In this document: positions 20,825-47,235 of the stretch, one piece after another | Numbering within the stretch: the first letter of the stretch is position 1 | How the letters are laid out: each line of letters starts with the position of its first letter | IMG/VR virus record: IMGVR_UViG_3300038435_000063 | Span: 1 to 49,572 of that record | Reading direction: 5' to 3' (one strand) | Source: a virus | Length of the DNA: 49,572 bases | The notes under the pieces: model-generated | The model's input: the letters and a program-made list of their open reading frames with translations, nothing else | Told to the model about the DNA's origin: nothing | Database searches by the model: none | Program-made: the position numbers and the translations under genes

Positions 20825-21997
20825 ATGCTAAACTTTGTCGGCTATGACTGGACAGTAACGGTAACGGTTGGCGAGCGGTCCTATACGGTTGGCAGCTGGC
20901 CTGATCGCTGGGAAGCGGAATTCTTTGATGTCAAGGCAACGGCGGTTGCCAAGGAACAGCCTGAGATTTTTGAGCAATGCGCATCCACAGACGAATTGCG
21001 AAGGTCGCTCAAGCGAGCCAAGATCGGGCGATTATCCGGAACAAAATGGGATGAGAAGATTGCCGCCGCTAAGGAGTGGATATGGACGGAAAAGGACCAG
21101 CCAACGGTGAGGCGGGAAAAGGACCAGCCAACGGTGAGGCGGGAAAAGAGAACAGCAAGAACCTTTGCCTACAACGGTGAAGCCCTGACCGTGCGCCAAT
21201 GGGCGGAACGCTTCGGCTTGCCAAGAAAATTCATTCACTGCCGCTTGCAACTTGGCTGGACGGTTGGCGAAGCCCTGACCGTGCCGAAAGGGGGTCAGGG
21301 AGTGAAGCAGCGAAAGCAGCCCAAACCAGCGAAGCCCAAGCCGAGAAAGGCTCAGCCGGGAGCCTGGTTGCATGTCCCGCTGACCTACCGGGGCAAAACT
21401 CAGACGCTGCTTGAATGGGCCAAAAAAAAAGGCATCAAGGCGTTTGTCTTGCATGAACGGGTAAAGTGGGGCTGGCCCGTAAAAAAGATCATGACCACGC
21501 CCGTCGATCCCGCTTGGGTTATGCCGGCAGAAGAACCGAAACCATCACCCAAGGCAAGGCGGTTGACCCATCAAGGCGAGACCTTGGCCTTGAAGCAATG
21601 GGCGGAACGGATCGGCATCGGTTATCTGACGATCAAGGGACGGGTTGCACGGGGCTGGCCCGTGGAACGCATCCTGGAAGCCCCGTTGCGGACCCGCAAG
21701 ACCATCACCCATCAAGGCAAAACCCTGACCATCCGCCAATGGGCGAAGGAAACCGGCATTGCTTACAACTTGCTGCGGGATCGGCAGTTGAAGGGCTGGC
21801 CCGTGGAACGGCTATTCCAGCCCAAGGAATGCGAAATGAAACTGACCTATCGGGGGATCAGCCAGACCGTCAAGGCATGGGCGGCAGATGTTGGCGTACC
21901 AGCGCAAATCCTCTGGCAACGGTTGCGGCGCGGATGGGACGTCGAAAGAACCCTGACCACGGCGATACCAGCGAAAGCACACTACGCTAGTGCATGA
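20825..21997 (+). CDS. WPDRWEAE-domain protein with five tandem HTH-like modules
   Basis: 390 residues. The first 60 contain WTVTVTVGERSYTVGSWPDR and WEAEF, shared with the protein at 35682. Five modules of about 40 residues follow, each reading like (T)YxGxTxTLxxWAxxxGIxxxxLxxRxxxGWPxExxL: for example AYNGEALTVRQWAERFGL and THQGKTLTIRQWAKETGI. Single copies of this module end some phage HNH proteins, where it is thought to contact DNA. Five in a row with basic linkers suggest a multi-module DNA-binding protein. A 27-bp tandem duplication lies between the first domain and the modules. The stop overlaps the glycosyltransferase start (ATGA). Confidence 0.65.
   Translation: MLNFVGYDWTVTVTVGERSYTVGSWPDRWEAEFFDVKATAVAKEQPEIFEQCASTDELRRSLKRAKIGRLSGTKWDEKIAAAKEWIWTEKDQPTVRREKDQPTVRREKRTARTFAYNGEALTVRQWAERFGLPRKFIHCRLQLGWTVGEALTVPKGGQGVKQRKQPKPAKPKPRKAQPGAWLHVPLTYRGKTQTLLEWAKKKGIKAFVLHERVKWGWPVKKIMTTPVDPAWVMPAEEPKPSPKARRLTHQGETLALKQWAERIGIGYLTIKGRVARGWPVERILEAPLRTRKTITHQGKTLTIRQWAKETGIAYNLLRDRQLKGWPVERLFQPKECEMKLTYRGISQTVKAWAADVGVPAQILWQRLRRGWDVERTLTTAIPAKAHYASA
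21089..21142 (+). repeat. Tandem 27-bp duplication inside the module protein
   Basis: 21089–21115 and 21116–21142 are identical and encode the repeated peptide EKDQPTVRR. The identity suggests a recent duplication in a linker. Confidence 0.85.
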
Positions 21998-22965
21998 AAA
22001 GAATCTTTATGTTGATCCCTGATTACACGGCATGCGGCTACTATCGGGCCATCATGCCAGCAGTCCATTGCGCTGAGCAACTGAAGGCGGAAGGGATTGA
22101 GCTAGTCGCCAGCCCGAACCTCGATATCCGCGAGCAATACGATGCCTACATCCTGCATCGCTTCCCTACGGTCAAGTTCTGCGCCCATCTATCGGAACTG
22201 AAAAAGCGAGCCAAGATCGTTTGGGAACTGGACGATGACCTTTGGCAGTTGCCCGCCTGGAACCCGGCAAGTGGCGAGGTCACTGCCGTTGATTTGGAAA
22301 ACCTGGATGCCGCCCTAGACCTTTCCGATTTCATTATCGTGTCAACGATGCCGCTCCTGAAAGTGGTTGGCGAGCAGCGCCCTTGCGTGGTCTGCCCGAA
22401 CTTGATCGATTGCAACTGGTTCCCGCCGGATGTGCCGGACTGGGACCGCAAGCCCCGTGTCCTCTGGACCGGCAGCAAAAGCCACGTCATGGATGCCGGT
22501 TGCCCCTCGCTGGATACCGCCATAGCTGCCAATGCGGGCAGGATCAGGCTTTCCACGTTCGGCTGCTGGGCGAAATTCGCCTTGGCCCATGAACATATCG
22601 ATCCCGTGCCGTTTACCGACTACTTCGCCAAGCTCGGGGAAATCCGCCCGCACATCGGCATCTGTCCGCTGTTCCATTGCCGCTTCAACCACTGCAAATC
22701 AAACCTGAAATATCTGGAACTGGCTGCCGGGGGAGCCTGCGTCATTGCGCAGGACATGGCTCCCTATGACTTGATTGACCACGGGGAAACGGGGCTGCTG
22801 GCTCAATACGATTGGGAATGGCAGTTGTCGTTCTTGCTGGACTGTCCGAAAGACGCTAGGGAAATAGCTGCTGCCGGGCAGGAATACGTGCGGCGGGAAT
22901 GGTCTTGGCAATCGGGCAAGGGCAAGGACGTCTGGCTGGATACCTTCCGCATGATCGCGGCTTAA
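21994..22965 (+). CDS. Glycosyltransferase (GT-B fold, GT4-like)
   Basis: 323 residues. The N-terminus reads FMLIPDYTACGYYRAIMPAV, and the C-terminal half has the sugar-nucleotide-binding pattern KSNLKYLELAAGGACVIAQD followed by YDLIDHGETGLL. This is typical of GT-B glycosyltransferases with activated-sugar donors. It is cytosolic, with no membrane segment. The start overlaps the stop of the preceding gene (ATGA), so the two are co-translated. It lies next to the poly-serine and fibre genes, so a virion serine tract is an attractive acceptor, but the acceptor could also be a host surface glycan or modified DNA. Confidence 0.75.
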   Translation: MKRIFMLIPDYTACGYYRAIMPAVHCAEQLKAEGIELVASPNLDIREQYDAYILHRFPTVKFCAHLSELKKRAKIVWELDDDLWQLPAWNPASGEVTAVDLENLDAALDLSDFIIVSTMPLLKVVGEQRPCVVCPNLIDCNWFPPDVPDWDRKPRVLWTGSKSHVMDAGCPSLDTAIAANAGRIRLSTFGCWAKFALAHEHIDPVPFTDYFAKLGEIRPHIGICPLFHCRFNHCKSNLKYLELAAGGACVIAQDMAPYDLIDHGETGLLAQYDWEWQLSFLLDCPKDAREIAAAGQEYVRREWSWQSGKGKDVWLDTFRMIAA

Positions 22966-23065
22966 ACGCAACAGGCACCGCCACAAGCGATGCCCTTAGT
23001 TATTTATAGAGAAACGGGTCAATCATTACGCACAGATGCTCTAGCATTAACTGTGCCACATTATG

Positions 23066-23071
23066 TATAAT
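23066..23071 (+). promoter_or_regulatory. TATAAT box before HNH gene
   Basis: TATAAT lies six bases before the ATG at 23078 and decides against the in-frame ATG at 23063, which overlaps the box. There is no ribosome site; a leaderless start is implied. Confidence 0.55.
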
Positions 23072-23077
23072 CTAACA

Positions 23078-23797
23078 ATGGATAAATTACTACCTAAACA
23101 AGATATGCCTAACGATAGTCGTGTTATTGATGTTACCGGGCAGCAGTTCAACGACCTCCACGCTGATTACTATGTCGGACAAGTGGCTTTCGGCAAACGC
23201 TTGCTCCATTGCTGGCAATGCACATGCACGTGCGGAACGACATGCATCGCAGCTGGTTCGTACATGCGACAACAGCGAGTCAAGAATTGCGGCGGCAATG
23301 CTCACCCACACAATTCAACCGTGCATGGCTTTTGCCCTAGGGGCAAGGCCATCCCGGAATACTGGATTTGGATGGCAATGAAGAACCGCTGTAATAACCC
23401 GAAAGACAAGAATTACCATCGGTACGGCGGGCGAGGTATTACGGTTTGCGAACGCTGGCAGCAGTCCTTTCCGAACTTCCTTGCGGACATGGGGCATCGT
23501 CCCAATCCTTCCTTGACGCTGGATCGGCTGGACAATGACAAGGGTTACTGCCCTAAAAACTGTGCCTGGCGAACCCGAAAGGAACAACAACGCAACCTCC
23601 GAACCACGACGATGGTAGAATACGAAGGCAAGACGGTTGCTCTGAATGATCTAGCGGACGCGCACGGCATTCATGAAAGGACTGTCAAGGGGCGGCTAAA
23701 GATGGGTTTTGCCTTGGATGAAGCCTTGACTATGCCGGTTAGAACTGAACCCGAAAGGGATATCGCAACCGGGCAGTTTCTCCCATTCGCACCGTGA
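23078..23797 (+). CDS. HNH endonuclease with C-terminal HTH-like module
   Basis: 239 residues. The N-terminus has VTGQQFNDLHADYYV and CTCTCGTTC. The central HNH-type domain reads YWIWMAMKNRCNNPKDKNYH, GRGITVCERWQ, TLDRLDNDKGYCPKNCAWRT and EQQRNLR. The C-terminus is one copy of the YxGKTVALNDLADAHGIH module also found in tandem in the genes at 20825 and 35682. This is a free-standing homing endonuclease lying between the glycosyltransferase and the capsid genes. Confidence 0.8.
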   Translation: MDKLLPKQDMPNDSRVIDVTGQQFNDLHADYYVGQVAFGKRLLHCWQCTCTCGTTCIAAGSYMRQQRVKNCGGNAHPHNSTVHGFCPRGKAIPEYWIWMAMKNRCNNPKDKNYHRYGGRGITVCERWQQSFPNFLADMGHRPNPSLTLDRLDNDKGYCPKNCAWRTRKEQQRNLRTTTMVEYEGKTVALNDLADAHGIHERTVKGRLKMGFALDEALTMPVRTEPERDIATGQFLPFAP

Positions 23798-23824
23798 AAA
23801 AAAGCCAGCCGAAAGGGGCTGGCT
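23797..23824 (-). terminator. Rho-independent terminator of the capsid operon
   Basis: AGCCAGCC (23803–23810) pairs with GGCTGGCT (23817–23824). On the minus strand the stem is followed by a run of T's. It ends transcription of the head genes that finish at 23854. Confidence 0.85.
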
Positions 23825-23853
23825 CTATAAAGTTTACATCTGCACACAATCGG

Positions 23854-24888
23854 TTAGGAGCAGCCAGTGAGCAAGAAACCACTTGCGGGGGCTGTCAATT
23901 TTTCAACGCAGTTCTCAACTGCCCTACCCAGAATACGGCGGTTATCGACGTCGTCCTTCTGTTCCACGGTCATTTCTTCCATGCAGAACAGGGTAAAGGT
24001 TGAGAAGCTCGGACCCGCGCCGCTTGGCCCTTCGAGGTCGCCAGGACGGGACATAATCACCGCCTTATCGGCAGGCCACACATAAGCATCAGACCGCGAT
24101 GCGCCGCGCTGGTTGCTCACCAGAACAGTATCGTCGACGATCAGTTCAAACCCGTAAAGGTACTTCGGCAAACCCCAATCGCCGATGTCATTCTGCCCCT
24201 TCACTACATCCATAGCGAAGGGCGAAGCCTTCAGGTAATCGGTAATTTCCGCGTTCGTTGAAATGGTGCTAGCCAATTCCGGACCAATGACCAGACGCAG
24301 ATTGCGACCAGCCACGCCGTTGGTTGCCTTCACGATTGCTCGCTTGGCATACAACAGGCTTTTCTTAATGTATTGGTTAGTGGCAGATGATGCCGCCCAG
24401 GTGCCACCGGAGCCACTGGCCACGGTTGCGGTTGCGGTATTGGCTCCCCAGTTGCCGGCAGTCGTCAGGACCGTTGCCACGCGGTTGGACCGACTGGTCA
24501 TCAACTTGCTGGCTTGAATGCCCGCATGGGATGCAACTACATCCCAGGTTGCTTGCTGTACGGCAAGCTGGCCTAGAGCGAACGGGTAAGCATAGCGGGT
24601 AGTGCTGTAGGTTTCCCAAGACAGTGACTCGGCATCGAGGCTGCCTTCCACTTCCGGCATCTTCTCGCCATCGGGCCAGATGTAATCTTGTTTGTTGCGG
24701 ACCCTAGAAGGGGTTTCGGACAACAGAAGAGCGTAATAGCCGACTTGAGTTTCGACCTTGCGAATCTGAATGTAATTGTTGAGCGGGAAATCCTTCGCGT
24801 TTCGGCTGAACCCGACAACCAACGAGCCTGACGCTTGATGGTTGGGGATGTAAGTATTATTACCGCTGTAAATTGGTGAGTATGCCAT
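23854..24888 (-). CDS. Major capsid protein
   Basis: 344 residues. MAYSPIYSGNNTYIPNH, the AYPFALGQLAVQQATWDVVA helix region, NLRLVIGPELASTI, YLYGFELIVDDTVLVSNQRG and RPGDLEGPSGAGPSF follow the usual plan of an HK97-fold coat protein: N-arm, long helix, beta core and C-terminal strand. Position after the protease/scaffold and decoration genes supports it. A GGAGGAAA ribosome site precedes the ATG. It forms an operon with the two genes upstream. Confidence 0.75.
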   Translation of the reverse strand: MAYSPIYSGNNTYIPNHQASGSLVVGFSRNAKDFPLNNYIQIRKVETQVGYYALLLSETPSRVRNKQDYIWPDGEKMPEVEGSLDAESLSWETYSTTRYAYPFALGQLAVQQATWDVVASHAGIQASKLMTSRSNRVATVLTTAGNWGANTATATVASGSGGTWAASSATNQYIKKSLLYAKRAIVKATNGVAGRNLRLVIGPELASTISTNAEITDYLKASPFAMDVVKGQNDIGDWGLPKYLYGFELIVDDTVLVSNQRGASRSDAYVWPADKAVIMSRPGDLEGPSGAGPSFSTFTLFCMEEMTVEQKDDVDNRRILGRAVENCVEKLTAPASGFLLTGCS

Positions 24889-24909
24889 TTTCCTCCGTTA
24901 GCCTTATTC

Positions 24910-25299
24910 TTATTTCTTACCTGTGTACACAACGACCCTACCATAGCTCTGGTAGGCGGTTGATTCTAGCGCTACTGCGCCAATGATGTTTGTAGATGAT
25001 GCTGGGACTCCCGCGCCGTTCGCATCGCTTGTCAATTGATCGCCCCTAGTGAATCCACCGGAGCCGGCAAGCAGTTGGCATACTTCGCCAATACCAAAAA
25101 TGTTGATGGGGTCGCCCGCGCCCGCAGCTACAGCAGATGCCCCAGAAATCTGAGGATCACGTGCGCTTGGGGTTGAGACGCCGATAATGAAATCAGTGGC
25201 TGCCGCCGCTTGAAGTGCTGTGTTGTCTGCCGCCGTGCTAGGCTTCACGAAAGTGCTTGGACTGATGTTGCCGCCCGCGACAAAGTTAATTGTTCCCAT
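24910..25299 (-). CDS. Head decoration protein (DUF2190-like)
   Basis: 129 residues, small-residue-rich, beginning MGTINFVAGGNISPSTFVKP, with IGVSTPSARDPQ, GEVCQLLAGSGGFTRGDQLT and IGAVALESTAYQSYGRVVVY. This alternation and the position between scaffold and coat gene match DUF2190-type capsid decoration proteins. An AAGGAGG ribosome site precedes the ATG. Confidence 0.7.
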   Translation of the reverse strand: MGTINFVAGGNISPSTFVKPSTAADNTALQAAAATDFIIGVSTPSARDPQISGASAVAAGAGDPINIFGIGEVCQLLAGSGGFTRGDQLTSDANGAGVPASSTNIIGAVALESTAYQSYGRVVVYTGKK

Positions 25300-25307
25300 T
25301 TGCCTCC

Positions 25308-26378
25308 TTAGTTGCCCTTCATAACCGCATCCACTGCTTCACTGTAAGGGATGCCTTTGTTCGTACTCAATTTCACTGCCTTGTCGGCATCCGCTGCTGT
25401 GAACTCACGCGGTCCATAATCAGCAACCCGCACGGGGGTCAAATTCACATGGGTGATGTCCCGGCTGTATCGTGTCTTCATGCGCTTCAAATGGCGCTGG
25501 TATTGGTTTTCATCAAGGTCCGCCACTTCCTCAAGTTCGTCCTTCATGTCAAACATGATGCCGTCTTGTCGGCTCAGGTCGATCAAGTCCTTCTCGCGTT
25601 CCGCTCTGCGGAACTTGCGCTTGAGTTCATTGATTTCCTTGGCTTGCAGGTCGTGAGCTTTCTTGTACTGCTCGCGTTCCGATTTGAGCCGCTGCATTTT
25701 GGCAGGGAAATCCTTGTCGCCTTCCTTGTCGTCATCGTCCGCTTCAAACAAAGCGGGCTTGTCGTCTTCCTTGCCGGGCATCGGGACTTGTGCGTTTGGA
25801 TCAGCAGCCATTTGCGCCGGTGCTGGTGCTGCCGGAGCTTGCTGCTGTGCCGCCATTTGCTGGCGAATGAATTGGAACTCTGGAAGGCCATCCAGCATTT
25901 CCATTAATTGTGAAACTAGATTCTCGTCCATATGCTTGTATAAAGTCTTCTCGCTGTGATTTTTTTTGGAGAAAAGCAAAGATAGATCGCGCTGCGGGGT
26001 AGTTGCGCCCAACAGGCTAACCGGGTCAATGGTCCCGTCCTTCCAAAGCTCGATTGAGCGGCGGGGATACTTGCGGACGGTTTCCCACTTGTCCTTGTGG
26101 AACTTGACACGTCCTAGAATGGCAGCGCGGGGTTTCCTGTTGCCGATCTTGCCTAGCGAGAAGTGTTCAACATAGCCCACGATTTCGGGCTGTGTGTTTT
26201 CGTCGGCATCATCGCGGGTATGGCCAATGCAGACCGGGGCATAGTCGCCCGTGTCCTCAATCCGGTCGTTGTTCACCTTGACCATTTTGGCCAAGGTCGC
26301 TTCGTCAAACTTGCCATGCTGATCGAAGAGCGGGACGTCGTCCGCAATTATGTAATCGCCTTCGGCGCGGTACTTCAT
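25308..26378 (-). CDS. Capsid maturation protease/scaffold fusion
   Basis: 356 residues. The N-terminal half (IEDTGDYAPVCIGHTRDDAD, IVGYVEHFSLG, YPRRSIELWKDGTIDPVSLL) resembles phage prohead proteases of the Mu gpI kind. The C-terminal half is a long charged coiled coil (KREQYKK-type, about residues 225–290), as expected of a scaffold released by proteolysis. It lies between portal and decoration genes. The catalytic residues cannot be assigned with certainty. ATACATA (26384–26390) lies five bases before the ATG. Confidence 0.65.
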   Translation of the reverse strand: MKYRAEGDYIIADDVPLFDQHGKFDEATLAKMVKVNNDRIEDTGDYAPVCIGHTRDDADENTQPEIVGYVEHFSLGKIGNRKPRAAILGRVKFHKDKWETVRKYPRRSIELWKDGTIDPVSLLGATTPQRDLSLLFSKKNHSEKTLYKHMDENLVSQLMEMLDGLPEFQFIRQQMAAQQQAPAAPAPAQMAADPNAQVPMPGKEDDKPALFEADDDDKEGDKDFPAKMQRLKSEREQYKKAHDLQAKEINELKRKFRRAEREKDLIDLSRQDGIMFDMKDELEEVADLDENQYQRHLKRMKTRYSRDITHVNLTPVRVADYGPREFTAADADKAVKLSTNKGIPYSEAVDAVMKGN

Positions 26379-26395
26379 GCCGATATGTATTCATC

Positions 26396-29300
26396 TCACT
26401 TGCGTTTCTTGAACGGCACTGGCTCCTCCTTGGGCTGGTTTCTTGCGATCTCGTCAAATGCCCGGCGGTAGGCTTCCAATCGGGAAATTGGTTTTGGAAC
26501 TCCTGCTATCAGGAATTGGCCTAGCTGGTGCGCGTAATCGTCATCCTGTAGCAAGTGCGGATGCTGGGATCGGACCATTTGCGCCAGTTCGTCAAAGCCC
26601 CGAATGTTTTCCGGGGTTTCGTTTTTCATGTCCTTGCTGAGCAGACTGATGCCGCCGAACTTGCTCTTTTCCTTCACGATGTCCCTGGCTGTCTTGAGCA
26701 TCGCTTGGACTTCTTCGACGTGCTTCCGATCCGTCTGCATGTGGTCATCAGCCAGTCCCTGCAAGTGAACCGGGTCAATGCCTTCCTCCTTGGCTTGCGC
26801 CTTCCAAATCTTGGGCATCTTCTGTGCAGCCTTGGTAATGCGGTCCGCGCCCCGCATCGGTTCGGATCGTGGCTCGTCATCCACATCATCGCCCGGCTGG
26901 CGTTCGGGTGCGTTGACCAGCATTAGCGCCGCTTTGCGGACTGCCCTTGGCTCCGGGGCTGGCTGCTTCGCCTCTGCAATGGCTGCATCGTAGGCTTCTC
27001 GTAGCGGTGGCGGGATTTTGTCTTCTTGCCCGCTATGGATTGCCGCAGTTATTTCGGCGAACATTTCTGCCGGATGGCTAACCCCGAAGCTGGATAGTTG
27101 ATAGTCCTCCTCCTTCAATTTGCCGCTGTCCTTGGCTTCCCGAATGGCCTTTTGAAAATCAACATTCAGTTCGCTTTCGATATGGTGTCCCGCTTCATGC
27201 CCGGCGATTGCTTCCAGGGGATCGGCAGCCGTTTGATGGATGTAATCCGTAGGGGACTTCAACCCGTGTAGCTCTCTTTTCTTGTCAGCAATCTGGGATT
27301 GGAGTTTGCGCCGCTTTTCCCCCGTCGCTTTTTTGGACTCGGCTTCGAGGTTGGCAATGTCGGATTCAAACTGCGGAACTACCTTCGCATTGTGGTCTTG
27401 TCTGCGTTGCTGCTCTTCGGTAGTCGACGGCTTTGTGTCCAGCGCATTGCGGCTAATTGAAAAGTTGCCGCCACTATGCCCGCCAAGGTTCGCATAAAGC
27501 CCTTGCTGATCCGTCAGGTTGATGCTCTTGGGCTGCAACCCATGCAAAGCTAGAACCTTCTCGATATGCCCCTTTACCTTGTCCTCCAGTTCGGGGGCTG
27601 CCGGCTTGCCAAACCACGGAGTTCCTTTCAGTTCGCTTGGGGTTTTCCCGATGGTATGGGCTGGCCCTTTGACGATTTTGCCGTCTTCGATATCGACTGG
27701 GGTGCCGCCGTGCTTTTCGCCGTCTGCGCCTTCCTTGGAACCGATGGTGACCCAGGCGAAACGCCTGGGCTTGCCTTGGCGACGAAAGGGGCTTGCTGCT
27801 GCCACCTCCGGGGCAGATTGGCCATTGCCGGCATTCGGAACGCCTGGCGGGGCATTTGGAGCGATTGGCGGGGCATTCGGATCGGCTGCCGCTGTCGCTT
27901 CCGGCATCACATCCGGGAACAGCAGCTGGGCTTCCATTGGGTCAAAGCCGAACAGCAATTGGGCATTGGCAATAGCAGCTTCTCGCGGGACTTCGCCCGC
28001 ATAGACGGCTTGCTGCAAACTGAGCAAAGCTTGGCTGCCGCCGACAGATGCCCGCAATTCGTTGGCTGATTTGCCGGCAATGTCCTGGCCCACGGGCTGC
28101 GCTTCATCCAGGCTGCCCATATCGGGACCGGGCGGGGCTTGGATGCCTGGCTGCATCGGCTGCTGGGGTTCGTCCGGCTCGGCAGCGATTTGCGCGGCTT
28201 GTTCGCCGGTTGAAGAGACGTGCAGAATCTTGCCATCGGCAGTCGGTTTGCCGAAACCGATGACTGCCCGCAACTCGTCCTCGTCCACGCTGCCGCCCAT
28301 GTCGTAAAAGGTTTTCGCGGCTTGCAGCAGTTTGTCCGGTTGCGGCTGGTCCGGGTTGATAACAAACTTCGGACAGAACTTCGCATCCGGGAAGTTGTAT
28401 TCCATTAGGACCGGAATCAGTTCGCGGGTGATGCATTCGCCGAGGTTCAAGCAGTCATACTTGATGATCTTGGCCAAGGTGTTCTGATGCAGGTCTGCCA
28501 CCGCTGAGCCTAGCCCCGTGTTCTCGGCTTGCTGGCTCAAGGTCTGCCCCAAGATCAGCAAGTTAATTTGGCTGGCGAACAAGTCGCGCACGACCTTGAT
28601 GAGCGCATCCACGTTGCCGGGATTGGCTTCAATGCGTTCCACGCCTGAATGTCGCCTTGCCCCTGGATCGGCAGGAACCGGCATTATGATGGTGTTGCTA
28701 AAGGCTTGGCTTTCGGCAGCCTTGCGCGCGGCATCTTCACTAGCGGGGTTGCCTTGTTCAAAGGTGAAGATGGTATAACCAGTGCCGATACGCTCCATGT
28801 ATTCAACCAGCCATCCCAGCGCTTCGGTCATCAGGTAGTAAGGCCAATAGCAATAGTTGCGCAGCCCGACGCCTTTCAACTGCCCGGCAAACTCTGGCTC
28901 GAAGTAGTCCACGCCGAATAGGAAGCCTTGATTCAGGACTAAGCATTTTCGTTCCCACGGTGTCAGGATGTGCGCGGAAGCACGGTCAGAAATGACGGTT
29001 TCAAGGTTGCGGGCTTCCTCTCCCGCCTTGCCAATGTGAAGCCCGACGTCATCAGAATCCCACTTGAAAACCAGTGTATCGCCGTGAACCGAACTCCAGG
29101 ATTTGACCATCAACCGCTTTTTGCCATTCCGGTAATCCCAGCAATAACGATTCAGGTTGGCGCTGCGCCCATACCAGTTGGCATCCAGCAAGTTCATCTT
29201 GTATTTCGTGAAGAACGGGATGGCTTCAATGATTCGCTGGACTTCCTTGCAGATAGCGACTTGCTCACGGTCCCGCGCGTTCTCCGGTTCCACCGAATGC

Positions 29301-29575
29301 GAGGAAAGGGCTGTGGACATGTAGCGAGCTAGCAACGGCTGCACAATGACGGGATTGCGCCGCATCGCTCTGGCGTTTGCCGGATCGTGCTTGAGCGCTT
29401 CGTCGAACTTGGTTAGGTAAAGTTTGCTGCCTTGGTTGTACTGGCCAACAAACTGCGAAACTGGCTGGACCGGATAACCGCCTGCGCCCGGCGCTACACT
29501 GTCGGGAATGTCCGGCGGACTAGACCATTTGCCATCGTGAAGGATTTGAATACCACTGGGGAGATTGCTGTACAT
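26396..29575 (-). CDS. Mu-like portal protein fused to a zinc-metallopeptidase-like tail
   Basis: 1059 residues from ATG 29575 (MYSNLPSGIQILHDGKW); an upstream start at 29590 is less likely because CTACATA lies five bases before 29575. The first about 470 residues match DUF935 (Mu gp29) portals, e.g. LFASQINLLILGQTLSQQAE and GLGSAVADLHQNTLA. A long proline/alanine linker follows. Near residue 790 is HEAGHHIESEL, an HExxH zinc-peptidase motif, with PAEMFAEITAAI about 60 residues on as possible third ligand region. Portals of this type are usually about 500 residues, so the C-terminal half is an addition. A role in head maturation, or in degrading a host protein after ejection, is inferred. Confidence 0.75.
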   Translation of the reverse strand: MYSNLPSGIQILHDGKWSSPPDIPDSVAPGAGGYPVQPVSQFVGQYNQGSKLYLTKFDEALKHDPANARAMRRNPVIVQPLLARYMSTALSSHSVEPENARDREQVAICKEVQRIIEAIPFFTKYKMNLLDANWYGRSANLNRYCWDYRNGKKRLMVKSWSSVHGDTLVFKWDSDDVGLHIGKAGEEARNLETVISDRASAHILTPWERKCLVLNQGFLFGVDYFEPEFAGQLKGVGLRNYCYWPYYLMTEALGWLVEYMERIGTGYTIFTFEQGNPASEDAARKAAESQAFSNTIIMPVPADPGARRHSGVERIEANPGNVDALIKVVRDLFASQINLLILGQTLSQQAENTGLGSAVADLHQNTLAKIIKYDCLNLGECITRELIPVLMEYNFPDAKFCPKFVINPDQPQPDKLLQAAKTFYDMGGSVDEDELRAVIGFGKPTADGKILHVSSTGEQAAQIAAEPDEPQQPMQPGIQAPPGPDMGSLDEAQPVGQDIAGKSANELRASVGGSQALLSLQQAVYAGEVPREAAIANAQLLFGFDPMEAQLLFPDVMPEATAAADPNAPPIAPNAPPGVPNAGNGQSAPEVAAASPFRRQGKPRRFAWVTIGSKEGADGEKHGGTPVDIEDGKIVKGPAHTIGKTPSELKGTPWFGKPAAPELEDKVKGHIEKVLALHGLQPKSINLTDQQGLYANLGGHSGGNFSISRNALDTKPSTTEEQQRRQDHNAKVVPQFESDIANLEAESKKATGEKRRKLQSQIADKKRELHGLKSPTDYIHQTAADPLEAIAGHEAGHHIESELNVDFQKAIREAKDSGKLKEEDYQLSSFGVSHPAEMFAEITAAIHSGQEDKIPPPLREAYDAAIAEAKQPAPEPRAVRKAALMLVNAPERQPGDDVDDEPRSEPMRGADRITKAAQKMPKIWKAQAKEEGIDPVHLQGLADDHMQTDRKHVEEVQAMLKTARDIVKEKSKFGGISLLSKDMKNETPENIRGFDELAQMVRSQHPHLLQDDDYAHQLGQFLIAGVPKPISRLEAYRRAFDEIARNQPKEEPVPFKKRK

Positions 29576-29649
29576 GCCGGTATGTAGCAACCGGCAAGGT
29601 TAAATTTTATGCGGAGGTAGAGGTAGGGGCGGGGCGGGGGTGGAACCTC

Positions 29650-30150
29650 CTAGGACCATCTGCCCGGCGTGTTTTGCGGGCTAGGTTTCAGCCCGATGAC
29701 CTTGACCTCCGGGATGCTGTTTTCGTTCCGGCGACGGACCACATAGGATTGTTGCGGTCTGTTGCCCTTGCCCGCGAATGTCATCCGCACATAGGGGATC
29801 AAGTCGCGGAAGTGGTTCCAGATGAATCTCCCTGGACTGTCGCTTTCCGCCATGCGGATGGCGAGTTCCATCGGGACTGGCTCGTATTGGTAATAGCGGT
29901 TGTCCTGGAACTCTACCTCTAGAATTTCCTCTGCCATCAGGTAGCGGATTTCCGCGACATTGCTTGAGGCCACGCGCAGCCAGGAGCCGTTCATTGCCCA
30001 TTGTTCCGCTGAGCCTGGCTCTGGTTCTGGTCGGCTCTGGGGTTCTTGGGTGACGGGCTGGATGGGTTGCTGCGGTATGGGCTGTGCGGCAACTGGTTTC
30101 CTGCCAACTAAACGACCCAGCAAACCACGAATGGATGAGAAAAATGCCAT
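29650..30150 (-). CDS. KTSC-domain protein
   Basis: 166 residues from the ATG at 30150. The N-terminus is amphipathic and basic (FFSSIRGLLGRLVGRK), then a proline/glutamine linker. A KTSC-type domain follows (SWLRVASSNVAEIRYLMAEE, VEFQDNRYYQYEPVP). KTSC domains are small modules of unclear function that are common in phage head regions. CTAAATA (30155–30161) lies four bases before the ATG. A short hairpin (CCTGGCTG/CAGCCAGG) lies just upstream on the same strand. Confidence 0.65.
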   Translation of the reverse strand: MAFFSSIRGLLGRLVGRKPVAAQPIPQQPIQPVTQEPQSRPEPEPGSAEQWAMNGSWLRVASSNVAEIRYLMAEEILEVEFQDNRYYQYEPVPMELAIRMAESDSPGRFIWNHFRDLIPYVRMTFAGKGNRPQQSYVVRRRNENSIPEVKVIGLKPSPQNTPGRWS

Positions 30151-30157
30151 GCCGTAT

Positions 30158-30439
30158 TTAGCCTGGCTGCGCCAAAAACAGCCAGGGCGGGAACAGCCAA
30201 ACATAGCCAGAAAGGTAAGCCACGACGAAATGATGCTCAGCGAACGTCAGGATCATGTAAACGCCGTTCGCGGGGCGCTTTGCGTGCAACGCCTGATCCG
30301 TGAACTCGCCAAGCTCGGAAATATCAATGTCCGCTGCTTCAAGTTCCTCGATCAAGCCCTTGTGCCAGTGCGCGTTGAGGTGCAGTATCCAGTCTTGCCG
30401 GTGACACTTGATACCGAACGCAGTTTCAAATTTGCCCAT
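30158..30439 (-). CDS. Small protein with hydrophobic C-terminus
   Basis: 93 residues, MGKFETAFGIKCHRQDWILH then an acidic helix and a hydrophobic end (HFVVAYLSGYVWLFPPWLFL), perhaps a membrane segment. The ATG follows directly after the TAG of the gene upstream, with AAAGGT before it, so the two are coupled. Unknown function; a role in lysis or membrane attachment cannot be excluded. Confidence 0.45.
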   Translation of the reverse strand: MGKFETAFGIKCHRQDWILHLNAHWHKGLIEELEAADIDISELGEFTDQALHAKRPANGVYMILTFAEHHFVVAYLSGYVWLFPPWLFLAQPG

Positions 30440-30700
30440 CTAGTACCTTTCAAAACATGTCTTCATGGTCGTCGTGTACCAAGCCAGGACGTCCCTTGGC
30501 TCTGCCGGTTTGGCTCGCTTCGGCTTGCTAGGCTTTCTGCCGCTCGGTTGAGGTGGTGCCAAGACTTGCTCAAGAGGCCAGCCCAAACGAAGTCGCTTGT
30601 TCACGCTTTGATAGGACAAGCCTAGCCGTTCCGCCCATTCAGCGATGGTCAAGGTCTCGCCCTTATGGGTCAAGGTTTTGCCGGTCTTTCGTTTTTCCAT
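30440..30700 (-). CDS. Single-module HTH-like protein
   Basis: 86 residues. Residues 9–52 are one copy of the repeat module (LTHKGETLTIAEWAERLGL, YQSVNKRLRLGWPLEQVL) also found in arrays at 20825 and 35682 and at the end of the HNH protein at 23078. A lysine/proline-rich tail follows. It has TATGCT (30706–30711) five bases before the ATG, with AGGGC between them. A DNA-binding role is inferred from the module. Confidence 0.6.
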   Translation of the reverse strand: MEKRKTGKTLTHKGETLTIAEWAERLGLSYQSVNKRLRLGWPLEQVLAPPQPSGRKPSKPKRAKPAEPRDVLAWYTTTMKTCFERY

Positions 30701-30719
30701 GCCCTAGCATAGTGTTCGG

Positions 30720-32660
30720 TCAGCCAACTCGACGCTTGGGACGCCGAACGTTTACTACCGGATTCCACGGTTGTACAGCATGGAATTCCGATGCCAGGAT
30801 GTAACGCAAGGCATCAACGCAATGGTTATCCTTGTCCACGGGCTTATCAAGGAACTCATGCCATTGGTACGTCCGGAGTTCCCGAATCAGATTGGTGCAG
30901 TCCCTGGAAATGTAAAGCTTAGGCTTGCCGTCTGCCGCGAGCTTGAGATGCTGCTGGACTACATTGATGCCCGCCTTGATATCCTTCTTGGCTGGCGTGT
31001 TCGGCAAGCCCCGGATGCGGAACTCTGCACGCTCCTGCAAACCGCCGTAGTCCGCATAGGTCATCCAGTTGTCGTTCCAGCTCTTCGCCTTGATCGCTTC
31101 GACGTGTTCCTCAATTGTCGCTTCCCTACGGAAGTATTCATCGTAAACATAGTAGCGCCCTTCCCGGTCACGCGCTGCGAAAATGCAGACGGTCGGATGG
31201 TTGTAACCGAAGTCCAGCCCGCGAAAGTGGGGCCAGTCATCCGGAATGTGCCTTGGCTGGATAACATGAATTGCCGGGTTGAAGGACTTGTAAACCGATC
31301 CGTAGTAGCTGCTAAACGCGCCGATCCTTCTCGCTTCCCGTTCTTCCTCAAGGCAGTTGTCCAGAATGCGACGGATGGCACCGGGGGCAACCTTGTCATT
31401 GCATTCCCCATTCATCCGGTAAAACTTCCAGTCCGTGTAGCGCTCTTGGTTTTCGTAAATCTGTTCTATGTACGGATCGGGCCTAAGTGGCGTAAGGCTG
31501 TAAATCTGGCTGCCGGGGTAATGGTAATCACGGCACCGCGCCCAAATGGACCCAAGCCGATCCGGGCTGATTTGTTCGTCAATCCAGAAACCGCCGATGG
31601 ACGATGCTTCAAACTTCTCTTGCTCGCTTTCGCCAGACTTCATTTCAATAACCCAGTTGTTACCGTGCGCATCGTTTTTCAGGATGACGGTAAGGGGTTG
31701 CTGCTGTCGCTGGCTGTACCACGTGTAACCGGCTATTGCGCTTCGCGGAATGAACCGGGACATGTGGGTTTGCCAACACGTGCCAATCGATTTATCGAAG
31801 GTTGGGCCAATGATCCAGATTGGACACATCGGGCGAGGTGGCGGGGTTTCCAGGATGTGCGTTGCCATCTTTGCGGCAGCCACGATGGATTTACCGCTGT
31901 TGTGATGCCATACCCCGCTCAGTTCGTAATTGTGGTTCTTGGCAACGGTTAGATCATAGAACCGATCTTTTTTCACATAGCGAACTTTGGTAATATGGGG
32001 GCATGAAGCAAAAGTATCCTTGGCCACTAGAGGCAATGAAAGACCTCTACACGTCTGGCCTTGAAGTTGTGCATCACATTGACAATAACCCTGGCAACAA
32101 TGCCATTGAAAACCTCGCCCTGTTTGCGAGCAATGCCGATCATCTGCGGGAAACCCTGGCTGGTAAATGCCCGAACTGGAGCGCAGCGGGCAAGGCTCGG
32201 ATAGGACGTGCTTTAGAGGCAGCCACTGACCGGCGGCGCACAAAACCCGATGCGCCAAAGTCGCCACGAACTGGCAACCATTGGACAGCGTAAACTCGTA
32301 TAGGTCGGCAATGCCCTTCACGAATGGCTTTGACGCCAGTGCAATCTCCCGCTGCCCCGTCTGCTCATTCAACGAATGGACGTGGAACGGTCCTGCAATT
32401 TGGTCCAGCCTGCAATACTCTTCCGCTATCGGATCATAAAGTTCCGTCCAGCCCGCAAGACAGCCCGTTCCACCTAAGCAACAAGCGATGCCGTTGAACT
32501 TCTCGGTTAGAAAACTGGTCTGCTGGTCATAAAGTTCCGGCTGGTCAGGACGAGGCTCGAAGTTCCGCAACGGTAGATTGAGCGCATCGTGAAGCAAGGC
32601 AATTAGCTTCTTGTCCTTGCTCTTCAGGATCGTTTCAATTTCGTCGTCAGTGAACTGCAT
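30720..32660 (-). CDS. Terminase large subunit interrupted by an intein
   Basis: 646 residues as read; 458 after removal of a 188-residue intein (residues 67–254). The exteins join as LGGTG + SGKSIVAAAKM, a complete Walker A motif. Walker B is GGFWIDEQ. The C-terminal nuclease has FRGLDFGYNHP, YADYGG and DKDNHCVDALRY, with the three expected acidic residues. The enzyme packages DNA into the prohead, using ATP and cutting DNA. It follows the small subunit gene by 15 bases. CTAGATA (32665–32671) lies four bases before the ATG. Without splicing the ATPase would lack an intact P-loop. Confidence 0.9.
   Translation of the reverse strand: MQFTDDEIETILKSKDKKLIALLHDALNLPLRNFEPRPDQPELYDQQTSFLTEKFNGIACCLGGTGCLAGWTELYDPIAEEYCRLDQIAGPFHVHSLNEQTGQREIALASKPFVKGIADLYEFTLSNGCQFVATLAHRVLCAAGQWLPLKHVLSEPCPLRSSSGIYQPGFPADDRHCSQTGRGFQWHCCQGYCQCDAQLQGQTCRGLSLPLVAKDTFASCPHITKVRYVKKDRFYDLTVAKNHNYELSGVWHHNSGKSIVAAAKMATHILETPPPRPMCPIWIIGPTFDKSIGTCWQTHMSRFIPRSAIAGYTWYSQRQQQPLTVILKNDAHGNNWVIEMKSGESEQEKFEASSIGGFWIDEQISPDRLGSIWARCRDYHYPGSQIYSLTPLRPDPYIEQIYENQERYTDWKFYRMNGECNDKVAPGAIRRILDNCLEEEREARRIGAFSSYYGSVYKSFNPAIHVIQPRHIPDDWPHFRGLDFGYNHPTVCIFAARDREGRYYVYDEYFRREATIEEHVEAIKAKSWNDNWMTYADYGGLQERAEFRIRGLPNTPAKKDIKAGINVVQQHLKLAADGKPKLYISRDCTNLIRELRTYQWHEFLDKPVDKDNHCVDALRYILASEFHAVQPWNPVVNVRRPKRRVG
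31899..32462 (-). other. Intein in the terminase Walker A motif
   Basis: 188 residues. Block A begins at C1 (CLAGWTELYD). Block B is TLAH near residue 68. Blocks F/G read FYDLTVAKNHNYELSGVWHHN, here split as FYDLTVAKNHNY and ELSGVWHHN, with Asn188 and the next extein residue Ser. All splicing residues (Cys1, block B Thr/His, His-Asn, +1 Ser) are present, so it should splice. No in-frame endonuclease motif is seen; residues about 95–150 are an odd Gln/Cys/Gly/Ser-rich linker. That stretch is the complement of a plus-strand HNH gene (32003–32293). Confidence 0.9.
32003..32293 (+). CDS. HNH endonuclease encoded antisense within the intein
   Basis: 96 residues. VVHHIDNNPGNNAIENLALF and SNADHLRETLAGK match the conserved core of the HNH_3-type phage endonucleases (HH, xxN, H). 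It lies wholly inside the intein coding region but on the other strand, opposite intein residues 57–153. TAATAT six bases upstream and GGGGGC before the ATG give a possible start signal. It would serve as the homing enzyme for the intein in trans. Confidence 0.75.
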   Translation: MKQKYPWPLEAMKDLYTSGLEVVHHIDNNPGNNAIENLALFASNADHLRETLAGKCPNWSAAGKARIGRALEAATDRRRTKPDAPKSPRTGNHWTA

Positions 32661-32675
32661 TACCTATCTAGCGGT

Positions 32676-33287
32676 TCACATCGCTTTCCTCTGCTTGCCT
32701 TCCAGGATCGTCAGCCCGGCAGCCTTGCGGATTTCGTCAACCTTCTGCCTGAGTGATTCGGACGGCATCAGGGTATCGGACTGCTCGCCAGCCTTGTTCG
32801 GGCGGTACGCTTCGTCATGCGTTTGCAGATAGAACTTGATGAGTTCCGTATTGGGCGGTAAGTGTTTGATTTCCTTCTTGATCGGCAACCAGATTTGCTT
32901 GCCAACCGTGTCCTTGACGAGCTTGCCTTCGTGGTCCCGCTTCGCCTCCCAATAAGTTTTAACTTCCTTGACCTCGCCCAGCATGTACCGATAGAGATGG
33001 CTTTCCACTTGGGCCTTGCGGCTGTCCTTCACTAACTTCCACTGAATGGCGAAATCAGAATAGACTTGCCGAGTGTAGGTAATGGAGATGCTGCTAACCT
33101 TCATTAGTCGGGCCATGTCAGTCTGAGAAACGCCCTTGGCATGTAGGCGCATGGCTCGCGCTTGCTGGGCATGGGTGAGCGGGCAGGCGCAGGCTTTGGC
33201 CATCTTTTCGGCAAGCTCCTGGCTGATCCAGGGAAAACGCCGCATCAGGCTGTCAGGCTTCGTAAATTGTGGGTGTCGGCTTGGCAT
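32676..33287 (-). CDS. Terminase small subunit
   Basis: 203 residues. The N-terminal half has an HTH: LTHAQQARAMRLHAKGVSQT, DMARLMKVSSISITYTRQVY. The rest is helical and charged (KAQVESHLYRYMLGEVKEVK), as expected for oligomerisation and contact with the large subunit. The gene is followed 15 bases later by the large subunit. CTAAATA (33293–33299) lies five bases before the ATG and directly after the terminator at 33313, so it must have its own promoter there. Confidence 0.75.
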   Translation of the reverse strand: MPSRHPQFTKPDSLMRRFPWISQELAEKMAKACACPLTHAQQARAMRLHAKGVSQTDMARLMKVSSISITYTRQVYSDFAIQWKLVKDSRKAQVESHLYRYMLGEVKEVKTYWEAKRDHEGKLVKDTVGKQIWLPIKKEIKHLPPNTELIKFYLQTHDEAYRPNKAGEQSDTLMPSESLRQKVDEIRKAAGLTILEGKQRKAM

Positions 33288-33312
33288 GCTGGTATTTAGC
33301 GGATGCCACGTT

Positions 33313-33346
33313 AAAAAAAGGAACGGGGCAGTTCAAACCCCGTTCC
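33313..33346 (-). terminator. Rho-independent terminator before the terminase genes
   Basis: GGAACGGGG (33320–33328) pairs with CCCCGTTCC (33338–33346), followed on the minus strand by seven T's. It ends the recombinase transcript. Confidence 0.9.
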
Positions 33347-33384
33347 CGCCTCATCTTCTAGTTCTTTCCACGAACTGCTTGTAT

Positions 33385-34065
33385 CTATTCGGCTCGCAAC
33401 AGAATTGCCCGGACTTGCACGTGTTTCCAGATTTTGCCTTGCCGGGTCGTATAGCCTTCCGCGTTCAGCCGGTCAGCGATGGCTTGCAGGGTTTCGCCAG
33501 CCTGACGCATCTCCTGGATCATGGGCAGGACATGGGCATAGGCTTGGGCGGTTTGCTGCTGAATGGCCATCCGGCTGGCCCGGTTGCCCTTCCTGCGGGC
33601 GGCATCGGTCAAGTTCCGGCATTTGGGCAGTTGTGCGCCCAGCAAGCCCCCGCGAGCCTTGTAGGCTGCCAGGGCTGCTTTCGTCCTTGTGCTGATGTCC
33701 TTGGCTTCCTTCTCGGCAACGGCAGCCAGGATATGCAGGGTGAACCGATCCGCGTTCGGCATGTCGGCGAAAACGATCTCGACGTCGCTTTCCAGCAGCT
33801 GGCTCAGGAAAGCGACATTGCGGGACAGCCGATCCAGTTTGGCCACAATCAGGGTTGCGCCACGGGCTTTGCAGGTTTGCAGGGCTGCCGCCAGTTGCGG
33901 GCGCGATGACAACTTGCCGGATTCCGCTTCAGTGAACGCGGGCAGGACCGGGCGGGTTGCCAGCTGGGCGAACCGCTCGACCGTCGCTTGCTGGGCTTCC
34001 AGGCCAAGCCCGGAGCGCTCTTGCTTGGTTGTGCTTACGCGGTAGTACGGGATCAGGGCTTTCAT
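33385..34065 (-). CDS. Small serine recombinase (resolvase/invertase type)
   Basis: 226 residues from ATG 34065. The catalytic domain begins IPYYRVSTTKQERSGLGLEA with Ser11; later motifs include LIVAKLDRLSRN and AAVAEKEAKDISTRTKAAL. The C-terminus has a short HTH-like part (GETLQAIADRLNAEGYTTRQ, GKIWKHVQVRAILLR). It is the size of resolvases and invertases, unlike the large integrase at 45094. It could invert a phage segment or resolve multimers; no inverted target sites were spotted. AAAGGA precedes the start. Confidence 0.85.
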   Translation of the reverse strand: MKALIPYYRVSTTKQERSGLGLEAQQATVERFAQLATRPVLPAFTEAESGKLSSRPQLAAALQTCKARGATLIVAKLDRLSRNVAFLSQLLESDVEIVFADMPNADRFTLHILAAVAEKEAKDISTRTKAALAAYKARGGLLGAQLPKCRNLTDAARRKGNRASRMAIQQQTAQAYAHVLPMIQEMRQAGETLQAIADRLNAEGYTTRQGKIWKHVQVRAILLRAE

Positions 34066-34076
34066 GGCTGGTCCTT

Positions 34077-34280
34077 TCACTTGCGGTTGATGCTGGTTGC
34101 CGGAACGCTGATCGGGAAAAGTTCTTCGTCGGGACGGACCACGATGGACTTGCCAGCCTGACGAATGACCACGGCGGAATGAAAGAGCAGCCCGCGATGG
34201 AACGCAGTGATGTTGCCAGGGATGGCCACAATCTGACCGGGCTTCACGGGCTTGACCTTGGCTTGCTTGACCTTGTTCAT
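34077..34280 (-). CDS. Small basic protein upstream of the recombinase
   Basis: 67 residues, MNKVKQAKVKPVKPGQIVAI ... TAFHRGLLFHSAVVIRQAGK. It looks like a short beta-barrel. TAGGAGCC precedes the ATG and the next gene follows after 11 bases, so the two form an operon. Function is unknown. Confidence 0.5.
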   Translation of the reverse strand: MNKVKQAKVKPVKPGQIVAIPGNITAFHRGLLFHSAVVIRQAGKSIVVRPDEELFPISVPATSINRK

Positions 34281-34711
34281 GGTAGGCTCCTAATTAGAAT
34301 TGTGACACTAGGACAAATGTAAGCTCGCTTGATCGGTTAAGCAAGCTCGCATCAGTGAACGTTGATGCGTTTTTCTAAAGTATTTTCCTAGATGAATGGT
34401 GCTGCATTTGGTGAACGAATCGAAAATTGAGAGTTGTTATGTCCGGGCGCACCGCTCACTCAGCCAGGGCATGGGGGGTAGGGGGCTTGATTTTGACATG
34501 AGATGAACCGACTACCAAGCCAGGACCACTAACGATGCTGGCCTGATGCTGCTCTAATGTAAAGCATTGTGTGCTAAGGGTTTGCGCTGGCGATGTAAGG
34601 CTGCTTGATCGTCCGACCAAGTTTAGCTTTAGCTAATAAGTGGTTCTGATGGTATGTATAGCTTGTCCTAGATTGGGGTGGAAAAGTGAATGGCTGCACT
34701 ATCATAAGGGT
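34281..34711. other. Divergent intergenic region, about 430 bases
   Basis: No convincing gene. It contains direct repeats of AAGCTCGC (about 34322 and 34343), a G-rich stretch (GGGGGGTAGGGGG) and, at the left, sequence upstream of the recombinase operon with TTGTCC-like and TAATTA-like boxes on the minus strand. At the right end TATCAT (34700–34705) lies before the gene at 34712. It is probably regulatory. Confidence 0.4.
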
Positions 34712-34969
34712 ATGATAAACCTCAACCCCGAAGCCCTAGCCCTAAAGGATAAACTGGTCCAAGCCAGTCTGAAACTCAAGTGTAACGATCCTCGCTCGCG
34801 GGTAACGGCAGAAGAACTAGACCAGTATTTCAAGGACTTGTCTGAACGAGACGTGTCGTGGCAGGAAATGGATGACTTGCGACACTTCGCCGATCCCCGA
34901 ACCAAATGGGTTATCCATCAGGCTTGGCACCATTCAATCCGGAAACGACTGGACGAATCCAATCCCTAG
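34712..34969 (+). CDS. Small helical protein
   Basis: 85 residues from the ATG at 34712 (MINLNPEALALKDKLVQASL), then a charged helical body (EELDQYFKDLSERDVSWQEM) and IHQAWHHSIRKRL. The start has TATCAT six bases upstream and AAGGG next to it; the longer frame from 34640 is not supported. It overlaps the 3' end of the convergent gene by about 60 bases. Unknown function. Confidence 0.5.
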   Translation: MINLNPEALALKDKLVQASLKLKCNDPRSRVTAEELDQYFKDLSERDVSWQEMDDLRHFADPRTKWVIHQAWHHSIRKRLDESNP

Positions 34970-35183
34970 CGAACCAAGGTGTATCGATTCGCTCCCATTG
35001 CTGAGCATCGCTCAAGCGAGCCTCTGCCTGCCTTATGCAATGCCATGCCCCGCAATATGGCACAATCCTCGTCTCCCGTTCCAGGAAGTTGCGGGCTATG
35101 CTGTCGCAATAGTTGCACTGCGTTCCGGTCCTGCGCATGTAATGAATCTGGTTGGCCAGCGAGAGTTCAGGGTTGCGTTTCAT
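34911..35183 (-). CDS. Small cysteine-containing protein
   Basis: 90 residues from ATG 35183, which has a GGGAGGT ribosome site. It has CNYC and CGAWHC, suggesting a zinc knuckle (MRRTGTQCNYCDSIARNFLE). Last of three overlapping tiny genes on the minus strand. Confidence 0.5.
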   Translation of the reverse strand: MKRNPELSLANQIHYMRRTGTQCNYCDSIARNFLERETRIVPYCGAWHCIRQAEARLSDAQQWERIDTPWFARDWIRPVVSGLNGAKPDG

Positions 35184-35289
35184 GGACCTCCCAAACTGGC
35201 AAACAATTGCGCTGGTAGGGTATCGACGGATCATAGTCATCGGCTAGTGTTCGCTCAACTCGGAAATAGCGTGATTGTGGTTCATCCAT
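35167..35289 (-). CDS. Tiny overlapping gene (40 residues)
   Basis: MDEPQSRYFRVERTLADDYD then PSIPYQRNCLPVWEVHETQP. It overlaps the upstream gene by 8 bases and the downstream gene by 17 bases. It is called because it bridges two probable genes in a coupled chain. Unknown function. Confidence 0.35.
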   Translation of the reverse strand: MDEPQSRYFRVERTLADDYDPSIPYQRNCLPVWEVHETQP

Positions 35290-35461
35290 TGCTGCTCTCC
35301 ATACATGTGCATTCCTTGGCATCTTGCAGGCTCTGAAACACTTCCCGATGTTCTAACTTGCCGCCGCTCAGCCGCAACAGGCACCACATGCCATGATCTT
35401 TTTTCAGACACCACAAGCCATCCTCAGACCAGTATTCGCCTTGCTCTTCTGTCCAGTTCAC
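35282..35461 (-). CDS. Small protein with GTG start
   Basis: 59 residues, start GTG 35461 with AGGAGAG upstream. Sequence VNWTEEQGEYWSEDGLWCLK ... LQDAKECTCMESSNG has tryptophan- and cysteine-rich ends. It follows the gene at 35473 by 11 bases. Unknown function. Confidence 0.45.
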   Translation of the reverse strand: MNWTEEQGEYWSEDGLWCLKKDHGMWCLLRLSGGKLEHREVFQSLQDAKECTCMESSNG

Positions 35462-35472
35462 TTGCTCTCCTA

Positions 35473-35664
35473 CTAAAGCAGCCTGACGCCTTTGCCCTTG
35501 GCTTCCAGCGCGGAAATTCTCTTGTTTAGCTGCGTCAATTCAATGTCGACGAAGTCGTTGGCGTCTTTCAGACCGTCGCACAAGTCCTTTAGACAGTGGG
35601 ACAATCCCTTTACTTGCTGGGCGAGCCTGATGACTGCGTCCAAGTGTTGTGATGTGTTTTCCAT
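35473..35664 (-). CDS. Small coiled-coil protein
   Basis: 63 residues with heptad-like leucines and isoleucines (LDAVIRLAQQVKGLSHCLKD, IELTQLNKRISALEAKGKG). TATATT (35670–35675) lies five bases before the ATG, with AAGGT between. It heads the chain of tiny genes to its left. It may act as a small partner protein; unknown function. Confidence 0.5.
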   Translation of the reverse strand: MENTSQHLDAVIRLAQQVKGLSHCLKDLCDGLKDANDFVDIELTQLNKRISALEAKGKGVRLL

Positions 35665-35681
35665 ACCTTAATATAGCTGGC

Positions 35682-36272
35682 TCACTGGCTTTTTTTGTGG
35701 TACTGCGCTGGGGAAAAGACTCTTTCCCAGGACCAACCTTTGCTGATCCGCCATCTGATCGTGCCACAACTAACGCCAATCGTCCTAGCCCATGCCGCCA
35801 AGGTCATGGTCTGTCCGTCATAGGTCAGGTAATTGGGTTTCTTGCGGGGTGCCAGCAGCCGTTCCGGCGGGGTGCCGCGATAGTGGCGGGAGTATAGCCG
35901 ATTGGGGCTGATGCCCAGTTCCTTCGCCCATTCGGTGATGCCCTTGGTTTCGCCGTTGATGGTCAGCCGCAGTTGCTCGCGGGCCTCGCACAATGTCCTA
36001 GCCATCGCACGGTTGTAGCGCTGGAGCATGCGTTCCGGGGTCATCCGGCACTGGCTGGCCCATTCGCTCAGTAGCTTAGTTTCGCCTTGCCAGGTGATGT
36101 TGAAGTCGGGTGATGGTTCGGGCTGCGCTTGTGGCTTTGGTGGCGCTTGGGGCTTGGCTATGGTAGTGGTAGCCTGGCATTCGTTTAGCTCGGCTTCCCA
36201 CCGATCAGGCCATCTGCCGATACATCGCTCTTCGATCCAGACCTCCCACTTGCCTTTGACGAAAACGATCAT
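35682..36272 (-). CDS. WPDRWEAE-domain protein with three HTH-like modules
   Basis: 196 residues. The first 35 (WEVWIEERCIGRWPDRWEAE) match the start of the protein at 20825. Three modules follow: NITWQGETKLLSEWASQC, LTINGETKGITEWAKELGIS and LTYDGQTMTLAAWARTIGVS, each with the (W)-A-x-x-x-G and GW/RGxPxER-type end. A DNA-binding function is inferred from the module's occurrence at the end of HNH proteins. It lies downstream of the primase gene on the same strand. TATTGT (36278–36283) lies five bases before the ATG. Confidence 0.6.
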   Translation of the reverse strand: MIVFVKGKWEVWIEERCIGRWPDRWEAELNECQATTTIAKPQAPPKPQAQPEPSPDFNITWQGETKLLSEWASQCRMTPERMLQRYNRAMARTLCEAREQLRLTINGETKGITEWAKELGISPNRLYSRHYRGTPPERLLAPRKKPNYLTYDGQTMTLAAWARTIGVSCGTIRWRISKGWSWERVFSPAQYHKKSQ

Positions 36273-47231: not shown

Positions 47232-47235
47232 AGTA

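Follow-up and report, generated by a model that had tools for sequence, protein, structure and literature searches.

The 49,572-base virus record IMGVR_UViG_3300038435_000063, which was analyzed over its whole length and is referred to here as the window, is a prophage that encodes four proteins sharing a module of about 40 residues. Three of these proteins, P0001, P0002, and P0004, may be nuclease-free DNA-binding proteins of the homing-endonuclease type that regulate gene clusters of the prophage, a reading that we consider evenly balanced. Directly supported are the identity of the module, its predicted helix-turn-helix (HTH) type of fold, the lack of a recognizable nuclease, the integrity of the genes, and their native composition; DNA binding, reading of DNA by several modules together, and regulation are what we infer.

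The module proteins and their relatives

P0001 (20825-21997, plus strand, 390 aa) is a nuclease-free array, in which an orphan N-terminal domain with the motif GSWPDRWEAE (20825-20956) is followed by five HTH modules (21164-21277, 21380-21493, 21563-21676, 21704-21817, and 21842-21955, all on the plus strand). It has a net charge of +36 and an isoelectric point (pI) of 10.3. P0002 (35682-36272, minus strand, 196 aa; net charge +11, pI 9.7) is built in the same way from an orphan GRWPDRWEAE domain (36168-36272) and three modules (35985-36098, 35853-35966, and 35715-35828, all on the minus strand), the first of which is degenerate, recognized in its first part only, and modelled as plain helices. 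P0004 (30440-30700, minus strand, 86 aa) combines a single module (30560-30673) with a basic tail, has no nuclease, and like P0001 and P0002 is strongly basic. P0003 (23063-23797, plus strand) is a homing-type HNH endonuclease whose C-terminus carries one module (23615-23728), and is the only module protein of the window that retains a nuclease domain. The original prediction had placed the four genes correctly, apart from the start of its HNH gene, which is at 23063 and not 23078, and had counted five modules in P0001 and three in P0002; its HNH protein with a terminal module is also real.

The window was scanned in six frames with a module profile. The first profile included these same modules, which makes the following absolute E-values optimistic: the five modules of P0001 had independent E-values of 7e-22 to 3e-20, two modules of P0002 were clear (4e-22 and 3e-19), the degenerate one reached 0.026, and the single modules foreseen in P0004 and P0003 were confirmed at 4e-23 and 2e-18, respectively. 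The degenerate module improved to 8e-9 once relatives joined the profile. No further module was found in this six-frame scan, the next match having an E-value of 0.26. The window modules are 19-47% identical in pairwise comparison, and their alignments score z values of 4.3-15 against shuffles. Within P0001, modules 3 and 4 are the closest pair, and the linker ahead of module 1 contains an exact 27-nt tandem duplication (21088-21141, plus strand) that encodes EKDQPTVRR twice. By these two features, P0001 is still changing.

Judged by sequence matches, the module is already known: it forms the C-terminal part of phage HNH enzymes (PHROG 3377), and it also occurs in PHROG 1065 and in relatives matching PVL_ORF50. 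The PHROG profiles are independent of the module profile. PHROG 3377, an HNH endonuclease family, matches P0003 at 4e-52, P0001 at 8e-43, P0002 at 1.6e-20, and P0004 at 7e-10. P0003 is an ordinary member of this family, whereas P0001, P0002, and P0004 differ in having no HNH domain; their best stretches align only to positions 84-193 of 196, i.e., the C-terminal part behind the HNH domain. PHROG 1065, of unknown function, matches P0001 at 4.5e-29 (residues 257-381 on positions 14-142 of 192, in three stretches) and P0002 at 1.4e-5. With PVL_ORF50 (PF07768), P0001 scores 20.2 bits, under the curated cut-off of 27, and its relative L167 passes with 41.7. PHROG 1065 and PVL_ORF50/PHROG 201 contain tandem modules of the same kind, and the WPDRWEAE N-terminus is absent from these families. 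Among HNH relatives, between one and four module copies follow the HNH domain, and other relatives have no HNH domain. Hence, the earlier description of the module as usually a single appendage of phage HNH enzymes is too strong, since two to four tandem copies are common.

Outside the window, unrelated elements also encode nuclease-free arrays, with two to six modules. In a different Gemmataceae prophage (L171), a nuclease-free protein with three modules precedes the genes for the tail terminator, terminase, portal, and capsid, all of which share its orientation, and more such arrays adjoin capsid, tail, or terminase genes. In Gemmataceae loci L125, L127, and L129, one module occupies the N-terminus of tyrosine-integrase-like proteins; L125 was checked with Pfam and PHROGs, and Pfam assigns it Phage_integrase. 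Arrays with at least three modules are nuclease-free in 6 of 9 cases, compared with 19 of 52 of those with one or two, which is a trend only; the sample is biased, redundant in part, and contains the window's own proteins. As some of the open reading frames (ORFs) were translated from stop to stop, their N-termini are uncertain. The searches of IMG/VR returned no relatives of P0002 and none of the terminase.

The N-termini of P0001 and P0002 are identical in 17 of 43 columns, so the GxWPDRWEAE domain proposed to be common to the two array proteins is a real match, and within the window it occurs in these two alone. Two DNA-pattern scans of IMG/VR, one for WPDRWEA and one for a relaxed form, found only unrelated frames or proteins. 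In phage records, plasmids, and genomes of the host's order, the matches listed cover modules or linkers and lie outside the WPDRWEAE N-terminus. By sequence comparison, related nuclease-free arrays thus already exist in other phages, and the WPDRWEAE N-terminus is found only in P0001 and P0002 among the collections searched. The models of this domain have a low predicted local distance difference test (pLDDT) score and comprise three strands and a helix in P0001, and only two strands in P0002. AP2-type DNA-binding domains have three strands and a helix. Homology of the domain to AP2 was considered and, at the level of sequence, is not supported: the profile E-values are 0.16-0.2 in a search with two sequences, and the expected region of P0001 was missed.

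Two further kinds of locus were observed. Proteins of six phage or plasmid loci (L046, L031, L040, L028, L168, and L169, the last two alphaproteobacterial by record name) have a similar N-terminal part, LW...A..DA...VC, followed by one or two modules and no HNH domain; in the loci checked for this, they are located next to capsid or tail genes. L167, from a Streptococcus equinus plasmid record, encodes six tandem modules with a regular period of 49-50 residues and a repeated DHLGN linker; it has no HNH domain, and no gene is annotated there.

Predicted fold and presumed recognition face of the module

The AlphaFold2 models contain a beta-hairpin followed by three helices in each module, with a pLDDT of ~80-96 over the larger part of modules 2-5 in P0001 and >90 for two modules of P0002. 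The module is therefore predicted to be an HTH with a leading beta-hairpin, and the structure prediction proposed as a check came out in favor of an HTH-type unit. PDB matches of a profile of 69 modules, each of them weak, fall mostly in HTH regions, and regulators and sigma factors dominate the highest ranks. In the divergent relatives L126 and L167, modules exceed the curated Pfam cut-offs of several HTH families. In structural comparison, the DNA-bound DNA-binding domain of I-TevI (1i3j_A) ranked second, with a Z score of 3.5 and a root mean square deviation of 2.6 over 37 residues, which is weak when taken alone. It stands among MerR-type and sigma-factor HTHs; the best Z score is 4.2, all scores are low, and most are tied within ~1. 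In a library of viral protein models, the best matches that carry a name are for the most part phage HNH enzymes and other endonucleases (SEP9, 3.8e-6).

Residues were compared among the 69 modules. Gly5, Trp13, Gly18, Arg27, and Gly31 are nearly fixed, with Arg27 present in 67 of the 69. Positions 20, 21, 22, 25, 26, and 29, which sit on or at the start of the presumed recognition helix, are among the most variable, with a mean entropy of 3.49 bits versus 2.15 overall. In 100,000 random draws of columns, no set attained 3.49 bits, although the six positions had been picked after the entropies were seen. The comparison suggested by the original prediction has thus brought out a hypervariable face on the presumed recognition helix next to a near-invariant arginine. 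With HTH behavior by both profile and model, these residues, and the strong basicity of the arrays, module-by-module DNA binding is the natural reading, and the HTH arrays very probably bind DNA.

Regulation and its alternatives

The case for regulation comes from gene position and from the precedent of CapR (PMC10448857), and makes the regulator role suggested earlier a plausible one. P0001 starts 46 bp from a divergent minus-strand gene (20440-20778), and the 46-bp gap between the two starts (20779-20824) is a candidate operator. CapR, a repressor of phage capsid expression, is derived from a T5orf172-type DNA-binding domain (PMC10448857). As is proposed for the window arrays, it is a nuclease-free DNA-binding protein derived from the DNA-binding domain of a homing endonuclease. 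In the proposed mechanism, each module would contact DNA through its variable recognition helix, and, strung on basic linkers like beads, the modules would together read an extended DNA site. The arrays would thereby control the prophage's own gene clusters, with P0001 placed divergently to minus-strand structural genes, much as CapR shuts off the phage capsid operon.

DNA-binding parts of phage homing enzymes (NUMODs) are loosely tethered and make contacts over up to 30 bp (PMC3943268), and T5orf172 endonucleases have repeated zinc-finger domains described as beads on a string (PMC10448857). The window arrays resemble the latter in layout, but not in fold: CapR and T5orf172 have a zinc-finger fold with CxxC...CxC (PMC10448857), and no CxxC is present in the translations of P0001, P0002, and P0004. 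CapR also differs in being encoded by a PLE satellite and not by the phage, and its function has been tested. The HTH of NUMOD1 and I-TevI is a DNA-contact module of phage homing endonucleases whose fold similarity to the window module is weak, and the window proteins have no significant sequence match to it; Pfam gives no NUMOD1 match in them, and a sub-threshold one in L126 and L167.

Several observations weigh against the regulatory reading. The search for an operator in the 46-bp gap gave 16 loose matches versus 6-12 for three shuffles and no inverted repeat; 20779-20824 contains no repeat or shared motif exceeding chance. A Foldseek search of the P0001 and P0002 models against the PDB found nothing below 0.001, which leaves the fold matches weak. 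Distant sibling prophages that share the portal, from the host's order, have no arrays in the stretches read, which places the array proteins outside the conserved core. The gene positions were noted after the fact and in a small sample. Furthermore, P0001 shares a plus-strand stretch with an HNH gene and may, given this, be cargo.

In that case, P0001, the glycosyltransferase gene whose start (21994) its stop overlaps, and P0003 would form a block mobilized by the HNH enzyme, and the array would serve homing, by target marking or site protection, and not transcription. The three genes do lie together on the plus strand, flanked by minus-strand structural genes, and phage homing genes are known to bracket and mobilize cargo as homing endonuclease gene islands (HEG-islands, PMC10448857). 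The GC content at third codon positions (GC3) is nevertheless native in P0001 (0.66) and the glycosyltransferase (0.71), not in P0003 (0.57). P0002 and P0004 do not adjoin an HNH gene of P0003's kind, no empty site was found, and nothing points to site protection. We regard this explanation as quite improbable. Anti-homing or silencing factors, the other functions raised in the original prediction, gained nothing specific in their favor.

The arrays could also be remnants or by-products of homing endonucleases, namely DNA-binding parts left after HNH loss and without a selected function. This would fit a window crowded with HNH-type genes, modules that are the same as those of P0003 and PHROG 3377, the degenerate first module of P0002, and the split endonuclease gp115/gp116 of ICP1, which leaves a free DNA-binding domain (PMC10448857). 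However, the reading frames of P0001, P0002, and P0004 are intact and long, and P0001 retains five modules with invariant scaffold residues. The HNH profile of the PHROG 3377-type family detects P0003 only in the window (5.7e-37; next 0.22), and no HNH remnant adjoins P0001, P0002, or P0004 in any frame. The GC3 of the array genes (0.665±0.018) equals that of core genes (0.652±0.008) and exceeds that of six endonuclease genes (0.555±0.013), which suggests long residence, although composition alone cannot show function. Arrays without a nuclease, with two to six modules, also recur in unrelated elements, and taken together this makes a remnant origin rather unlikely.

A role in packaging or replication, in which the arrays would bind at a site of packaging or at an origin to help terminase or primase, seems very unlikely. 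P0004 is directly downstream of the large terminase gene, and P0002 starts 30 nt after a primase/helicase-like gene, for which no family match was found and whose function is read from its sequence. The arrays of L041 and L171 are located upstream of terminase, and small-terminase PHROGs match P0004 and L126 weakly. These matches are confined to the HTH part, and the window has a separate small terminase candidate (32676-33287; phrog_309, 3.8e-8).

If the regulatory reading of P0001, P0002, and P0004 is true, an HTH-based case is added to the known reuse of DNA-binding parts of homing endonucleases as regulators, as in CapR and plant AP2, and such reuse would have happened repeatedly in phages. 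With a fixed scaffold and a varying recognition face, the arrays could be a natural modular scaffold for DNA reading. Such proteins are commonly annotated as 'HNH endonuclease' or 'unknown', and these annotations may mislead. It is a bolder and, in our estimate, unlikely proposal that strings of two to six nuclease-free HTH modules constitute a separate class of phage regulators, with a module code that would read long composite sites and switch late gene clusters, and with WPDRWEAE as a new partner or oligomerization domain.

The prophage and its other genes

The window contains portal, capsid, terminase, and head-tail genes. It also encodes a large serine integrase, whose gene (45094-47073) is followed by a 3-deoxy-D-arabino-heptulosonate 7-phosphate (DAHP) synthase gene. 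The DAHP synthase protein is 97% identical to a homologue in a planctomycete metagenome-assembled genome (MAG), with Gemmataceae MAGs among the next matches. The phage structural genes, the integrase, and the adjoining planctomycete-like gene thus identify the window as a prophage of a Gemmataceae-like planctomycete. A segment of about 210 nt (47054-47275), which precedes the host DAHP synthase gene and begins at the integrase gene's 3' end, is 75-80% conserved in other planctomycete MAGs. Judging from this, the segment is a probable attachment region inside a conserved leader or small RNA; it has no match in Rfam.

HNH-type genes are abundant in the window, at 4346-5065, 11994-12629, 14025-14711, and 15280-15948, aside from P0003 and one in the terminase intein, and an additional endonuclease gene is located at 9626-10264. 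The large terminase gene (30720-32660, minus strand) carries a 188-residue intein (31899-32462) at the Walker A motif, GGTG/CLAG...HHN/SGKS. On the opposite strand of the intein interior lies an HNH_3 ORF (32003-32293, plus strand; PF13392, 1.9e-6, above the Pfam cut-off). Such an antisense homing gene within an intein seems unusual.

The minus-strand gene at 16740-20081 encodes a protein of 1113 residues, which consists mainly of long serine runs interrupted by single R, L, or F residues, and whose middle part we read as LamG-like. Shorter serine runs are present in other proteins of the structural region, including the ends of those encoded at 8027-9559 (minus strand) and 5107-6603 (plus strand).

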